From positions 62,001-126,000 of the IMG/VR virus record IMGVR_UViG_3300034110_001237: a stretch of DNA of 64,000 nt. The stretch is one strand, 5' to 3'. Below the pieces are notes generated by a model. It was not told the origin of the DNA, did not search any database, and worked only from the letters and a program-made list of their open reading frames with translations. The position numbers and the translations under genes were made by a program. Within the stretch, counting starts at the first letter, position 1. Each line of letters starts with the position of its first letter. Below are positions 3,229 to 52,844 of this stretch, piece by piece. The DNA comes from a virus.

Positions 3229-3282
3229 GCCTTTATTTTCTGTTCATGGTATACTTAATCATTACTTAATTTGGAGTCTTCT

Positions 3283-3714
3283 ATGTATGATATCGTTGCG
3301 TCAAGCATCATTAATGACCTAATTCTTAATCGTGATCCTACCAGTCATCTTATTTTGGATGAACTTAAAAAGGCTCAAAGTCTTGTTGGTCAAACTGAAC
3401 TGCTGATTCAAATTGATTCAGATGACGATTTTGCGGTTGATGGGAAATCAGTTTTTTCCAAATCTTTTGTAATTGGCAATCGTGATTTGGTAGAAGTCTA
3501 TAAAGACGCTATTAAAAGTATCACTTTCGGTCATCACAATCAAAAAAACTACAAGCTTGAACGTTTCTTGGAAGATATTATGACAGAAGATTTTTTAGAG
3601 GAAGTTGCTAGCGGCCATGCATCCACAGGTGGTAATCAAACCATTGATGTATACGTTATTCCATCCCCTACTGTGTTGACTATCGGGTCAATTAAGATTG
3701 ATTTGACAAAATAA
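3283..3714 (+). CDS. Hypothetical protein
   Basis: 143 aa, acidic, soluble. The ATG at 3283 is preceded by TTGGAG with good spacing and by a promoter-like GGTATACT at about 3248-3255. A TTG four codons upstream overlaps the ribosome site and was not used. Function unknown. Confidence 0.8.
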   Translation: MYDIVASSIINDLILNRDPTSHLILDELKKAQSLVGQTELLIQIDSDDDFAVDGKSVFSKSFVIGNRDLVEVYKDAIKSITFGHHNQKNYKLERFLEDIMTEDFLEEVASGHASTGGNQTIDVYVIPSPTVLTIGSIKIDLTK

Positions 3715-3771
3715 TACTTTCAATTATTGCTCAATTATGTTAAAATAGGCCCACTTGAGGGCTTATTTTTT

Positions 3772-4419
3772 ATGAGAAAACCAATTACTGTCAACACCAT
3801 TGCAGAACTGAAATCAGTTGCATTTGATTATAATGCTCCTGTTTTCGTTGGCCCTGACATTCTGATTAGTGATTTTATTTCGACGGATGATGAATGTGAT
3901 AAACTCATTGAAAAATTAAAACCTTATCACAAAAGTGTGATTGCTTTCTGTTTTTCTCATGATGGTTTTCGTGTTCATTTTTTGATGATTGATAATTTCG
4001 TCGTCTTAAAAAAATATGCCATTGAAAATGTGACGATTATGAATTTGAAAAAATTTGTTGTCCACTCTATTCGTTTTGACACTGGCACTCATGATTGGAG
4101 CGAAAAGGAATTCTATTCCTATAAGCGTGGTAATAAACCTGTCAGTGTTAGTCGTAACTATGCTTCGTTTATTGCAAAATATGCTCATGTTTATGATAAA
4201 ACCTACGTCAGTGAAATTAGAGTAACTGATAACTCTCAATACTTGATTGATATGACATTTAATCGTAACGGTCGTAAGATTACATTAATGGAGTTGGGAG
4301 CGGAGTATCCAGAGATTGTGTCTGCATTGCGTGGAAAGGTTCGCTCAGTTGAAAACTTGACCAATAAAAGTAAGCTGATTAAATCGTTTTTACCTATTAT
4401 TGATATGATACTTATTTAA
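3772..4419 (+). CDS. Hypothetical protein with the C-terminal M-x-x-I signature
   Basis: 215 aa. It ends LPIIDMILI, the short hydrophobic helix with Met at -4 found in about 14 proteins of the window. The segment before it (a YPEI turn after an RKITLMEL-like strand) resembles the next gene, so the two are probably paralogs. A hairpin GCCC/GGGC followed by TTATTTTTT lies in the leader at about 3749-3771 and could act as an attenuator. The ATG after it was taken because an earlier start would overlap the -10 box (TAAAAT). Confidence 0.78.
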   Translation: MRKPITVNTIAELKSVAFDYNAPVFVGPDILISDFISTDDECDKLIEKLKPYHKSVIAFCFSHDGFRVHFLMIDNFVVLKKYAIENVTIMNLKKFVVHSIRFDTGTHDWSEKEFYSYKRGNKPVSVSRNYASFIAKYAHVYDKTYVSEIRVTDNSQYLIDMTFNRNGRKITLMELGAEYPEIVSALRGKVRSVENLTNKSKLIKSFLPIIDMILI

Positions 4420-12222: not shown

Positions 12223-13308
12223 ATGTCTACGTTTAAAGCAACCGTTCTTTCAGTCATTGTTGAGCCACACCCTAACGCTGATGCGATTGAACTGGCTCGC
12301 GTTGGTGATTTCTTTTCGATTATCCAAAAAGGATATTTGAAAACTGGCGATTTGGCTGTCTATATCCCAGAAGGTGCCCTTGTCCCTGAATTCATTCAGG
12401 AAGAAGTGGGGTGCCTCGGTAAATTGGCAGGTTCCAAGAAAAATCGTTTGAAACCGTCTATGCTTCGTGGCGTGCTTAGCCAAGGTCTTTGCTTTAAGGC
12501 CCGTGAAGGTTGGGAAATTGGTGATGATAAAGCCGAAGAATTGGGTATCGTGAAATATGAGGCTCCTATTCCAGCTTCTATGAATGGTGAAATTTCTAAC
12601 GTAGGCATTGAAAACACTTTCCACTTTGACATTGAAAACGTCAAACGCTACCCTGATGTGTTGGTTGAGGGTGAAGAAGTGTCGATGACTGAAAAACTGC
12701 ACGGTACTTTTACTATTGCAGGTAGTGTGTATGGTAAAGCTCCAATTCCACACACTGTTAATGGTCGTTCTTTTGTGAGTAGCAAAGGATTCTTTAACAA
12801 AGGTTTGGTGCTTCGTGATAACGAACAAAATGCTCATAACATTTACATTCGTGTAGCGAAGAAGTTTAATCTTTATGACATTACGGCTATCCTTTCAGAC
12901 CGTTACAAAACTAACGCTTACATTTCGGGTGAAACGTTTGGTGCTGTTCAAGATTTGACTTACGGTCTTGAAGCGGGTGTGTTCGATTTCCGTGTGTTCA
13001 ATGTGTTCCTTGGTAATCGTAGCGAAGCAAGTGGTGTGTTCCCAGTGAACGATGATGTATTAGAAGAAATTCTTGCTGAGTTCGACTTGAAGCGTGTTCC
13101 AGTGCTTTACAAAGGGCCATACAGTAAAGAAGTGATGTTGAAATATACGGATGGATTTGAAACCTATTCAGGCAAAGAAACACACATCCGTGAAGGTTTG
13201 GTTATTGAACCACTTGTTCAGCGTCGTGACCCAACCATTGGGCGTGTTGTCTTGAAAAGTGTTTCAACTGCTTACTTGTCGCGTAAAGGTGGCACTGAGC
13301 TTAACTAA
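12223..13308 (+). CDS. RNA ligase, DRB0094 (Rnl5) family
   Basis: 361 aa, the usual length for this family. The N-terminal 110 residues form the extra OB-like domain, followed by the nucleotidyltransferase core: motif I EKLHGT with adenylated Lys158, motif Ia around GRSFVSSKG (181-189), motif III YISGETFG (233-240), IIIa FDFRVFNVF (254-262), IV EGLVIEP (324-330) and V VVLKSVS (342-348). It would seal RNA nicks with ATP. It has its own promoter (TATAAT at about 12183) and AAGAGG. All key residues look intact. A second, unrelated RNA ligase lies at 25.9 kb. Confidence 0.93.
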   Translation: MSTFKATVLSVIVEPHPNADAIELARVGDFFSIIQKGYLKTGDLAVYIPEGALVPEFIQEEVGCLGKLAGSKKNRLKPSMLRGVLSQGLCFKAREGWEIGDDKAEELGIVKYEAPIPASMNGEISNVGIENTFHFDIENVKRYPDVLVEGEEVSMTEKLHGTFTIAGSVYGKAPIPHTVNGRSFVSSKGFFNKGLVLRDNEQNAHNIYIRVAKKFNLYDITAILSDRYKTNAYISGETFGAVQDLTYGLEAGVFDFRVFNVFLGNRSEASGVFPVNDDVLEEILAEFDLKRVPVLYKGPYSKEVMLKYTDGFETYSGKETHIREGLVIEPLVQRRDPTIGRVVLKSVSTAYLSRKGGTELN

Positions 13309-14952: not shown

Positions 14953-15453
14953 ATGTTTAAAAAAACCCTATTCGCGTGTCTTTTGATCAGTAGTTCCTTA
15001 GCTGTTCATGCCGAAGATTTTTCACCTTTTGGAATCAAAATCGGAGAGACGAGTTCTTTCTATCCAAAAAATCTCCAACCCACAGTTCTTGAACCAGTAA
15101 AAGTTCAGCCGCCTGCACCTGTTGATGACTTTTTCAATGAATACAACGTTTATTTTAATGACGATCAATTGGTTCGTAAAGTCGAAGCATCTGGTGATTT
15201 AACATCTGGTAAATACAGTTGTGTGGATATTGCTAATTCACTTAACGACACATTCATCAAAACCTATAAAAACGCTCAACCGGGTGTTCAAAATGGTGCA
15301 ATGTATGCTTATACCGTTGAAAGTGGAACAGACACCTATTCTGCTTATATCTCATGTGATGACACGTCTATTCATTATGTGATGTTCAATCCCGGTCTTG
15401 AAAAAATACGCGATAACATTGAAAACCCACCAAAAACAGATGTAAAATTGTAA
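14953..15453 (+). CDS. Exported (periplasmic) protein of unknown function
   Basis: 166 aa. Clear signal peptide (FKKTLFACLLISSSLAVHA, cleavage after residue 20, AHA-type). The mature part begins with a Pro-rich stretch and has two Cys (in KYSCVDI and YISCDDT), likely a disulfide. It resembles in layout the exported protein at 55973. Promoter and ribosome site as described for the repeat at 14874. Confidence 0.85.
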   Translation: MFKKTLFACLLISSSLAVHAEDFSPFGIKIGETSSFYPKNLQPTVLEPVKVQPPAPVDDFFNEYNVYFNDDQLVRKVEASGDLTSGKYSCVDIANSLNDTFIKTYKNAQPGVQNGAMYAYTVESGTDTYSAYISCDDTSIHYVMFNPGLEKIRDNIENPPKTDVKL

Positions 15454-25725: not shown

Positions 25726-25895
25726 AAATTAACCCTCAAATAATCGATTATTTTACTTTATGGATGATAAAAAGTCAATGTTTTATGTTATTTTCATTTT
25801 ATTTCTTTGTTTTTAACTTTTTCATGATTAAAACGTTGCTTTATAGGCTCTATTTTGGTACAATATCGGAAATGAAAACAACGGAGATACACCAC

Positions 25896-27050
25896 ATGTC
25901 AATTTTTCCAACTATTCGCCATATTGACGACATCTTGCCAGCTTTGGTTGGTAAAGATTACATCGGTATCAACAAGCAATCTAACGGTTCGACTGTTATT
26001 TGCTATAACATCAGCAATGCTGAAGGTTTTGCTACGTCTTTTGAAAAAGAGTGTCGTGGTATTACTTTCAACCGCGATGGTAAAATTGTCTCCCGTCCTT
26101 TGCATAAGTTCTTTAACTTGGCAGAGCGTGAAGAAGTCTTGCCACAAAACTTGAATTGGGATGATGTTGTTGCTGTCTTCGATAAAATGGATGGTTCTAT
26201 GATTACGGGTGGTGTATTCCACGGTGAAGTCTTCGTAAAATCTAAAAAATCCTTTGAATCGGATGTGGCTGTCTCTGCTTTGGCTTATGTGAAAGCAAAC
26301 CAGAAATATTACGATTTCATCAAGCATTGTGCTAATGTAGATTTGACACCAGTTTTTGAATATACGTCGCCAAATAACCGGATCGTATTGCGTTACGATG
26401 AAGAAAAAATGACTGTGTTGCATGTTCGTCATAACATCACTGGTTTATACCATACTCCAGATGAAGTGGCAGCATTGGCGAAGTCTTTTGACATTCCAGT
26501 GAACGCACCATTGTTTGGTAAAGGCTTTGATTTGAAAGCATTGTTGGAATCTTTGAATACTGTTGAAGGAATCGAAGGTTATGTCATTCAGTTTAAAAAC
26601 GGCGATATGGTGAAAGTCAAAACTCGCTGGTATGTAAACTTGCACCATGCTGTTACTTTCGTGCGTATCCGTGATATTGCTCGTTTGGTATTGTCGGAAA
26701 AAATTGACGACTACATTGCATTTGTTGCTTTGAATGCACCAGAAGCCGATTTGACTCAAATCCATCATATCAACGACACTATTAAAGGTGAAATTGAAGG
26801 AATCAAGAAAGAAGTTGATACAATTTTGGCTCAGCATCAAGGTGCAGATTTCAAAACGTTGGCAACTACTTACTTGGGGCATCCATACTTCTCTTTCATC
26901 ATGACCACTGCTCGTGGTAAAGAAGTGGATTATTTGGACTACTACGAACGTAACCGTTTGAAAGAAGTTTGGTCTTTGGAGCAAGTGGATTTGGGTGACT
27001 TCACTGGCACCGACGAATCAGACGAAGAAGTTCAAGTAGACGAAGAGTGA
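25896..27050 (+). CDS. RNA ligase, T4 Rnl1 (RnlA) family
   Basis: 384 aa, close to the 374 aa of T4 Rnl1. Motif I FDKMDGSM with adenylated Lys97; the conserved ECRGITF (52-58) and KFFNLAE (71-77) of this family precede it. Motif III PVFEYTSPNNRIVL (152-165), IV EGIEGYVI (224-231), V VKVKTRWY (239-246). The last 20 residues are strongly acidic. It would join broken tRNA ends, as T4 Rnl1 does after anticodon cleavage. No polynucleotide kinase-phosphatase partner is seen in the window. The start was placed after GGAG; a longer frame upstream overlaps the promoter (ACAATAT about 25860). Confidence 0.93.
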   Translation: MSIFPTIRHIDDILPALVGKDYIGINKQSNGSTVICYNISNAEGFATSFEKECRGITFNRDGKIVSRPLHKFFNLAEREEVLPQNLNWDDVVAVFDKMDGSMITGGVFHGEVFVKSKKSFESDVAVSALAYVKANQKYYDFIKHCANVDLTPVFEYTSPNNRIVLRYDEEKMTVLHVRHNITGLYHTPDEVAALAKSFDIPVNAPLFGKGFDLKALLESLNTVEGIEGYVIQFKNGDMVKVKTRWYVNLHHAVTFVRIRDIARLVLSEKIDDYIAFVALNAPEADLTQIHHINDTIKGEIEGIKKEVDTILAQHQGADFKTLATTYLGHPYFSFIMTTARGKEVDYLDYYERNRLKEVWSLEQVDLGDFTGTDESDEEVQVDEE

Positions 27051-51061: not shown

Positions 51062-51090
51062 TTGATTGCTTCGTTTCTTTTTGCTAGAAT
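51062..51090 (+). promoter_or_regulatory. Promoter of tRNA-like RNA T1
   Basis: TTGATT (51062-51067), 17-base spacer, TAGAAT (51085-51090). Transcription would begin near 51097. Confidence 0.7.
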
Positions 51091-51137: not shown

Positions 51138-51240
51138 GCGGATGTGTGAGCGTAATAGGAGAGTTGGCCGTCCGTCCTTGAATAAAGGTTGCTCTACTGT
51201 TGTATTGGTAACGTAGGTTCAAATCCTACCATCTGCACCA
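51138..51240 (+). ncRNA. tRNA-like RNA T1 with expanded interior
   Basis: GCGGATG (51138-51144) pairs with CATCTGC (51230-51236) with one G-U at position 3-70, followed by A and encoded CCA. The T-arm is GTAGG-TTCAAAT-CCTAC. Between them are 68 bases instead of the usual 41. GAGC (about 51148-51151) can pair with GCTC (about 51190-51193) like a D-stem around a loop of nearly 40 bases that holds CCTT/AAGG. TACTG/TGGTA would make an anticodon-like arm, but with a 6-base loop. About 40 transcribed bases precede it. Not a normal tRNA; it could be a degenerate tRNA or a tRNA-like RNA. Confidence 0.65.
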
Positions 51241-51261
51241 AATTTCTTGATTGTTGTGATG

Positions 51262-51275
51262 GCTTGTGGTATAAT
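51262..51275 (+). promoter_or_regulatory. Promoter of RNA R1
   Basis: Extended -10 TGGTATAAT at 51267-51275, with TTGATT-like sequence 17 bases upstream. Confidence 0.75.
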
Positions 51276-51376
51276 CATCACATCAAACGAATTAGGAGCC
51301 TTCGTCAAAGAAGGTTGGATAGCAGCGGTGTCGCGGGCAAGCTATCAAGAAAGGTGAGAAATACTCCCTTTCATAG

Positions 51377-51441
51377 TAACAAAGTCCATCAGGGTGCTGT
51401 TTGCCTTGATTAAAACGCTTAGGTGAAGCGGTTCTTTGTTA
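51377..51441 (+). repeat. 65-nt RNA module, copy 1
   Basis: Closing stem TAACAAAG/CTTTGTTA; hairpin A ATCAGGG-9-base loop-CCTTGAT; linker TAAAA; hairpin B CGCTT-AGGTG-AAGCG. Loops A and B start 18 and 44 bases into the module, exactly as in the other copies. Confidence 0.8.
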
Positions 51442-51457
51442 CGAACTTATTTGTCAA

Positions 51458-51522
51458 TTAGCGAAGGAATTATAGTCCTAGTGGCTATGATTAAAACGGT
51501 TAGGTGGACTGGCCTTCGTTAA
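51458..51522 (+). repeat. 65-nt RNA module, copy 2
   Basis: Closing stem TTAGCGAAGG/CCTTCGTTAA; hairpin A AATTATAG-TCCTAGTGG-CTATGATT; hairpin B CGGTT-AGGTG-GACTG. Same length and offsets as copies 1 and 3. Confidence 0.8.
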
Positions 51523-51544
51523 GACCAATTTTAAAGGTTGTTAT

Positions 51545-51568
51545 TTACAGGTAATTGATGTATAATAA
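51545..51568 (+). promoter_or_regulatory. Promoter of RNA R2
   Basis: TTTACA, about 16 bases, then TATAAT at 51561-51566. Confidence 0.72.
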
Positions 51569-51674
51569 CTTCCAGTTAAACGAATACGGAGCAGCAGTTA
51601 AATGTTGCTGAATGGTAGCGGTGGTCGGGCGAGCCATTGTGTGAAGGGGAGGTGATTTCTTAGTCCCTCTCTTA

Positions 51675-51739
51675 GCAACAAGGGAATTAAGATGTTGTTT
51701 GTCTTGATTAACACGGTTGGGTGAACCGGCCCTTGTTGC
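51675..51739 (+). repeat. 65-nt RNA module, copy 3
   Basis: Closing stem GCAACAAGGG/CCCTTGTTGC; hairpin A AATTAAGA-TGTTGTTTG-TCTTGATT; hairpin B CGGTT-GGGTG-AACCG. Same length and offsets as the two copies in R1. Confidence 0.8.
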
Positions 51740-51751
51740 AAACCTTATTCC

Positions 51752-51778
51752 AAAGAGTTGTCGATGACAGCTTTTTTT
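51752..51778 (+). terminator. Terminator of R2
   Basis: GTTGTC-GAT-GACAGC followed by seven T. Confidence 0.85.
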
Positions 51779-51784
51779 GTTTTA

Positions 51785-51960
51785 TGCCCTATAGTCTAAT
51801 GGATAATCATTGACAGACTGACAAATTAGTCAGAATCATTCAGGTTAAACTGAATGTGAAGTTGAAAATGGTAACTTTTCGGTTCATGCAAAACCGAAAA
51901 GGAGGACGCCACGTATGTATGTTGGTGGAGATGCAGGTTCGATTCCTGCTTAGGGTACCA
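51785..51960 (+). ncRNA. tRNA-like RNA T2 with a long insertion
   Basis: The start reads like a tRNA: GCCCTA, then TAGTCTAATGGATAA as in many D-arms. The end is a standard T-arm GCAGG-TTCGATT-CCTGC, acceptor strand TAGGGT, A and encoded CCA. TGCCCTA pairs with TAGGGTA. Between are over 100 extra bases with hairpins CTGAC/GTCAG (6-base loop), ATTCAG/CTGAAT and a 10-bp CTTTTCGGTT/AACCGAAAAG. The insertion lies where the anticodon and variable regions belong. It may be an interrupted tRNA, a tRNA-like RNA or a decayed gene. Confidence 0.62.
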
Positions 51961-52199: not shown

Positions 52200-52390
52200 G
52201 ATACCTTTTTATTGGTGAATACTCAATTTATTGAGGTCGTAGGCTAATCCCTTCTTCACCAGCCAGATTTGCTGTAGGCTCTTGTAGCCTGTCCGACCGG
52301 GTTGTGACCGGGCAGTACCAGACGGTACCCATTTAGGTGGAGTCAATAAGGCGTAGGTAACTGGTTCCTATTGCAGCAATGATATTATTA
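52200..52390 (+). ncRNA. Possible structured RNA R4
   Basis: No gene fits 52197-52470. Helices: TGGTGAA (52213-52219) with TTCACCA (52255-52261), an acceptor-like pair ending in CCA that encloses CTCAA/TTGAG (52222-52235); AGGCT-CTTGT-AGCCT (52276-52290); CCGG/CCGG (52297-52311); GTACC-AGAC-GGTAC (52315-52328). It is followed by TTTAGGTGG, like loop B of the 65-nt module. No clear promoter or terminator. Confidence 0.45.
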
Positions 52391-52470
52391 ACACTATTGA
52401 GAGAATATTATGCCGACATATGAAAAAATCTGGACACGATTATAAAATGTTAACCCTAGGAGGGTAAATT

Positions 52471-52632: not shown

Positions 52633-52828
52633 GTGGTTCTTACAGAGCAAGACCTGCATTAAGTGAAGACTGGCAGCTTGATACGGGAATTATACCGGCC
52701 CAGCGGAATAGTGGAGCGAGAGGTGTAAACCTTGACCTTAGAAGCGATGATTTCCGGTGACTTGGTGGTGGAATTAGAACCACATAGTACATAGTACGGG
52801 AAAAGACTTCTTATGAAGTCTTTTTTTT
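52633..52828 (+). ncRNA. Structured RNA R5
   Basis: GTGGTTCT (52633-52640) pairs perfectly with AGAACCAC (52776-52783), closing a domain of 150 bases. Inside: CAAG..CTGC (52648-52657) with GCAGCTTG (52673-52680); ACCGG (52694-52698) with CCGGT (52754-52758); and AGGT-GTAA-ACCT (52721-52732) with a GNRA tetraloop. A terminator follows at 52802-52828. It begins at the stop of the 53-aa gene. Confidence 0.65.
52802..52828 (+). terminator. Terminator of R5
   Basis: AAAGACTTC-TTAT-GAAGTCTTT with eight T. Confidence 0.92.
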
Positions 52829-52844
52829 ATTCTTTTTTAAGCTG

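Follow-up and report, generated by a model that had tools for sequence, protein, structure and literature searches.

A noncoding block in the window that we analyzed (64,000 bases, positions 62001-126000 of a 161,697-base virus record) carries three copies of a conserved and modular RNA fold, a three-way junction. The reading that we prefer, with a probability of roughly one half, is that the RNAs built around it constitute a new family of phage-encoded structured ncRNAs acting in trans, with the three-way junction as an autonomous, re-used domain. A preliminary description of this DNA had taken the copies for an RNA fold under selection that belongs to no known family, an interpretation that our results support; it overlooked the larger RNAs with their own predicted promoters, the conserved 5' domain, and the occurrence of the domains apart from each other.

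Fold of the three-way-junction module

All three copies share one fold, in which helix P4 closes hairpins P5 and P6, the order being P4, P5, a five-base joiner UAAMA (J5/6), P6 with the loop RGGYG, and a single G. The helices vary compensatorily, and the joiner, the loop and the flanking G are almost fixed. Bit scores are given below; R1 is a covariance model of the module built from 14 copies, and the two covariance models of this study have 69 and 60 positions.

51376..51442, + strand: module 1, three-way junction (77.9 bits); P4 51376-51384/51434-51442, P5 51388-51395/51403-51410, P6 51416-51420/51426-51430; unpaired J5/6 UAAAA 51411-51415 and G 51431
51458..51522, + strand: module M (middle copy), solo three-way junction between two RNAs, no 5' domain (79.1 bits)
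51675..51739, + strand: module 2, three-way junction (87.8 bits)

The preliminary description had placed three 65-nt copies correctly (51377-51441, 51458-51522 and 51675-51739), except that the stem of module 1 is one pair wider, with 51376-51442 as the outermost pair. The closing stems, put there at 8-10 bp, all pair exactly, with 9-10 bp in P4: GTAACAAAG/CTTTGTTAC in module 1 (51376-51384 with 51434-51442), TTAGCGAAGG/CCTTCGTTAA in module M (51458-51467/51513-51522) and GCAACAAGGG/CCCTTGTTGC in module 2 (51675-51684/51730-51739). Hairpin B (P6) does change from CGCTT/AAGCG in module 1 to CGGTT/AACCG in module 2 with pairing kept; module M has CGGTT/GACTG, which includes G-U pairs. The stretch GATTAAMACG is near-invariant, as had been noted, but it is not all linker: its first three bases, GAT, are the last ones of hairpin A (P5), which leaves UAAMA as the actual linker. 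Module M is identical in three related loci (L002, L005 and L006), and its 5' domain has been lost or was never present. The MFE z-scores of the two halves of the region are -3.75 and -4.79.

Covariation and coding potential

In a structure-free alignment of 13 distinct copies, pairing holds in 94.3% of the cells and 15 of the 23 pairs have double-sided changes, and 0 of 500 shuffles matched the observed pairing and changes. Covariation was evaluated with an R-scape-like test, whose null comes from scattering the substitutions anew over a FastTree tree in 200 simulations. The summed covariation was 94.5, whereas the null averaged 1.6 and peaked at 31.1 (145.7 versus 42.8 for the null in a structure-fitted alignment that includes L008 and L032), so a significance test of the kind that the preliminary description had proposed gave a summed score beyond the tree-aware null. 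Individually, 3-5 of the 23 pairs are significant on the proposed structure and 0-1 among all column pairs; with all known members coming from just seven contigs of a single rare group of phages, the per-pair significance is modest. The selected fold had been claimed from the window's copies, and compensatory changes are also found in relatives that lay outside that earlier view.

No open frame runs through the block, all six frames being stopped in every relative; a conserved ORF, which had been named as an observation that would remove the RNA claim, was found in none of them. The RNA claim stands.

Two larger RNAs in the window

Two ~170-nt RNAs with the order P1-P2-P3-P3a-module have module 1 and module 2, respectively, at their 3' ends. 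The three colinear modules described before are thus confirmed, but modules 1 and 2 are 3' domains of larger RNAs and not free units.

51247..51275, + strand: predicted promoter of the first RNA, TTGATT, 17 nt, TATAAT, with an extended -10 TG (10/12 consensus matches)
51289..51452, + strand: first RNA, with P1 (51289-51296/51445-51452), P2, P3, P3a and module 1 (model R2, E=1.5e-21)
51297..51346, + strand: 5' domain of the first RNA, P2 (51297-51316) and P3 (51318-51346), loop AGCGGUGUCGCGGGC
51349..51372, + strand: hairpin P3a of the first RNA, GAAAGG/CCTTTC
51538..51566, + strand: predicted promoter of the second RNA, TTGTTA, 17 nt, TATAAT
51582..51750, + strand: second RNA, with P1 (GAATACGG/CCTTATTC), P2, P3, P3a and module 2 (R2, E=5.2e-20)
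51752..51776, + strand: predicted intrinsic terminator directly 3' of the second RNA, kept in relatives

P1 pairs GAAUNNGG with CYUNAUU (6-7 pairs), the P3 loop is nearly fixed (AGCGGUG...), and P3a is usually present (GRGAGG/CCTCTC in the second RNA; lacking in L004 copies a and b). The P2-P3 domain has 15 pairs, with 100% of the cells paired and double-sided changes in 10 of them. A sigma70-like promoter is predicted from consensus match 5' of each of the two RNAs; the promoters, the terminator and the free-standing transcript are sequence predictions. Several predicted ncRNA or tRNA promoters of these phages share an initial transcribed sequence resembling ...CUNCAUUGAA after the -10 box, and starts of this kind are seen at window 51062-51090, L004 336-372, L004 11412-11440 and L032 2817-2860.

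Relatives and modularity

Five further IMG/VR records were retrieved by the exact core pattern. R1, the kind of covariance model that the preliminary description had suggested building, retrieves copies across the relatives: 3-4 in each of six phage records (E 1e-10 to 1e-22) and one in the GTDB contig C124 (locus L032, E=1.9e-8). One relative is a 437 kb phage with four module copies. Two stand in tandem (L004) ahead of tRNA-Cys and a terminator. A third has a different structured RNA behind it, and the fourth (L008) combines the module with 5' hairpins of another kind, between a predicted promoter and terminator of its own. This phage and the window share about 10 proteins, mostly in the same order, and since the neighboring gene order is kept, the locus is stable.

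C124 (46.5 kb) is binned as Flavobacteriaceae bacterium UBA6231 (MAG) and is phage-like: it encodes phage protein families and shares related proteins with the other phages. Here a predicted promoter is followed first by the module and then by tRNA-Asn and an amber-type tRNA(CUA), and P2-P3 (E=1.9e-7) lies ~23 kb away on the opposite strand, followed by P3a and tRNA-Arg. Because the module and P2-P3 are found apart, they are independent, separable and re-used domains. The tRNA(CUA) (L032 3096-3171) and a cysteinyl-tRNA synthetase-like protein (3239-4414) adjoin the module.

The carriers are a rare group of large phages. Among 50,697 annotated phage records none is closely related to them, and blastn found no match there to the window region or the RNA. 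A search with neighboring proteins gave no further phages of the group beyond the records already known, and of 300 genomes from the family to which the L032 bin belongs, that bin alone yielded the module. Because the collection scans required a nearly exact core, metagenome-scale searches could extend the family.

Several candidates were rejected. A fourth R1 match in the window's own record (E=0.18) and a weak window match at 15434, which lacks the core, are false positives. The single weak blastn match, to a divergent relative in Acinetobacter phage MD-2021a, is inside a coding gene, and the module model finds no copy in this record. Viral contigs matching looser core patterns (L007, L034-L044) score at chance level with the model, only one of four GTDB pattern matches survives (L032), and matches to a P3-core pattern (L068-L071) are short and partial.

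Comparison with known RNA classes

At the gathering score, no family of Rfam release 15 lies over the RNA in the window; at E up to 10 only chance-level matches occur near it, outside the module, and at E up to 1 nothing lies over the RNA in the relatives. The Rfam match that the preliminary description regarded as a threat to novelty is therefore absent from the window and the relatives, and its view that no known family has this motif holds for a region that is also noncoding. ARAGORN reports no tRNA or tmRNA over the module region, the Rfam tRNA model gives no match, and a CCA end is absent. None of the copies found has the protein-gene leader and expression platform of a riboswitch aptamer; every one of them belongs to an ncRNA or tRNA locus. 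GOLLD and ROOL models give no Rfam match, and the RNA has ~170 nt versus several hundred; the phage location near tRNA islands is a shared niche and not membership. The covarying fold is a P4-closed three-way junction and not the two stem-loops of the ~70-nt HK022 put, so that on the features tested the RNA belongs to neither GOLLD/ROOL nor put.

Other structured RNAs and genes nearby

Other RNAs surround the block. At window 51138-51240 (also L002 202-326, L003, L005 and L006) is a tRNA-like RNA missed by ARAGORN, with its own predicted promoter (51062-51090), a T-arm, a CCA end and a 7-bp acceptor stem. This RNA and its counterparts have 103-125 nt with extra sequence between, and those of L002, L005 and L006 carry an extra hairpin in the would-be anticodon loop. 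A tRNA-like gene at window 51786-51960, absent at the same place in L003, L002, L005 and L006, has the halves GCCCTATAGTCTAATGGATA ... AGGAC...TAGGGTACCA, split by a ~94-nt hairpin insert at the D-loop. L002 465-538 (also L005 and L006) is a 74-nt tRNA cloverleaf with the six-base anticodon loop GUUGUA, above the Rfam tRNA cut-off (34.2 bits) and not called by ARAGORN.

A conserved structured RNA at window ~52635-52830 and L062 ~2235-2525 (AGAGCAA..., AGUGGAGCGANAGGYGU..., CCUUGACCUU, terminator) is of the type that directly follows a module RNA in the 437-kb phage. Between two short ORFs, window 52200-52400 (also L003, L005 and L006) holds a conserved GC-rich structured RNA (GUAGGCUCUUGUAGCCUGUCCGACCGGGUUGUGACCGGGCAG...) whose changes look compensatory (UACCAGACGGUA / GCACCAGACGGUGC). 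The window also encodes two RNA ligases (12223-13308, Rnl2-like, and 25764-27050, T4 Rnl1-like), beside insert-bearing tRNA-like genes in one phage. One phage island can thus carry several unrelated structured RNAs overlooked by standard annotation.

Possible roles of the RNAs

Lying among the tRNA genes of the virus, the RNAs are probably working parts of infection rather than junk. We propose that sigma70 promoters of the host type would drive the two ~170-nt RNAs, which lie in an island together with tRNA-like and other structured RNAs, and that P1 in each closes P2, P3, usually P3a, and the 3' three-way junction P4/P5/P6. Since the unpaired junction bases are fixed and the helices change freely, UAAMA, RGGYG and the single G look like a recognition site, most likely for a protein. 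That the module recurs with different partner domains (it is duplicated at the window locus and elsewhere follows other 5' structures) points to a binding domain that is autonomous, with P2-P3 perhaps a second one. The second RNA and L008 each show the predicted layout promoter-RNA-terminator, which suggests that the RNA is free-standing and acts in trans. An autonomous unit of ~67 nt, in which few unpaired bases are fixed, brings pull-downs of partners, mutagenesis and structure determination within practical reach.

The main rival, which we consider a serious but clearly less probable reading, is a cis leader of tRNA or ncRNA precursors that protects the 5' end, spaces tRNAs or recruits processing enzymes, with no function as a free RNA. 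The RNAs are often upstream of tRNAs, maybe on one transcript, and a cis role (leader, processing, stability) may fit too: the two L004 copies precede tRNA-Cys and a terminator, the L032 module opens the transcript into tRNA-Asn and tRNA(CUA), and P2-P3-P3a of C124 precedes tRNA-Arg. However, a tRNA is dispensable, since in the second RNA and in L008 the 10-20 nt that separate the module from a terminator hold no tRNA; nor does a module precede the window's tRNA-Cys (46103) or the remaining tRNAs of C124. Slightly less likely again is that the three-way junction is a portable domain with a new activity, for example modifying host RNA polymerase or tRNA maturation as RNA alone, which the phage group attaches to various RNAs of its tRNA islands.

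Weaker than the cis leader are a polymerase-modifying and a ligand-binding role. The first, which we think unlikely, is that of a nascent-RNA element that would modify RNA polymerase (antitermination or anti-pausing) in analogy to HK022 put, an antiterminator of ~70 nt with two stem-loops that occurs twice per genome, behind sigma70 promoters (PMC9378689). The modules are of comparable size and lie 10-100 nt downstream of predicted sigma70 promoters, but put has no three-way junction, modules 1 and M are two modules on one transcript, and a conserved intrinsic terminator stands right behind the module in the window group and L008, which runs counter to the purpose of an antiterminator unless this terminator is the regulated target. 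The second, a metabolite- or ion-sensing aptamer (riboswitch-like) with the fixed junction bases as its ligand pocket, appears less probable still: variable helices around a near-invariant junction and loop resemble aptamer domains, and tandem copies exist, but no copy found is in a protein-gene leader, the module shares no sequence with an expression platform (the terminators form hairpins of their own), and no Rfam aptamer matches. That the RNA is a decoy, titrating a defence nuclease of the host or a defence protein that binds RNA, is very improbable, for although neighboring island RNAs are tRNA-like with abnormal loops and the window encodes two RNA ligases, as expected of phages facing tRNA-cutting defences, the module is unlike tRNA and matches no Rfam tRNA model.

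Relation to known phage RNAs

The stable RNAs C and D of phage T4, whose function is unknown, are encoded in the phage's tRNA cluster; to our knowledge they have no conserved module, and their resemblance to the present RNAs is one of genomic setting. The packaging RNA (pRNA) of phi29 is a structured phage RNA containing a three-way junction; the present RNAs differ in that they have no Rfam match and occur as several differing copies per genome in a tRNA/ncRNA island, with no evident link to packaging genes. HK022 put acts by read-through of downstream terminators via the zinc-binding domain of the RNA polymerase beta' subunit. The module resembles it in size, in being structured and in its position downstream of predicted sigma70 promoters. 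It differs from the two stem-loops of put in its closed three-way junction and in which bases are conserved, and it often has partner domains on its 5' side and a terminator right after it. GOLLD and ROOL are extensively structured phage and prophage RNAs of unknown function near tRNA islands (PMC12286853). The RNAs described here are likewise structured phage RNAs encoded in tRNA islands, but at ~170 nt and in separate genes they fall far below the size of GOLLD and ROOL (many GOLLD >800 nt), which assemble into multimeric cages, and they match neither Rfam model. Structured RNAs of phage tRNA islands such as GOLLD and ROOL have been a long-standing puzzle, and the present family is a much smaller one, whose constituent domains have been split and rejoined in the course of evolution.
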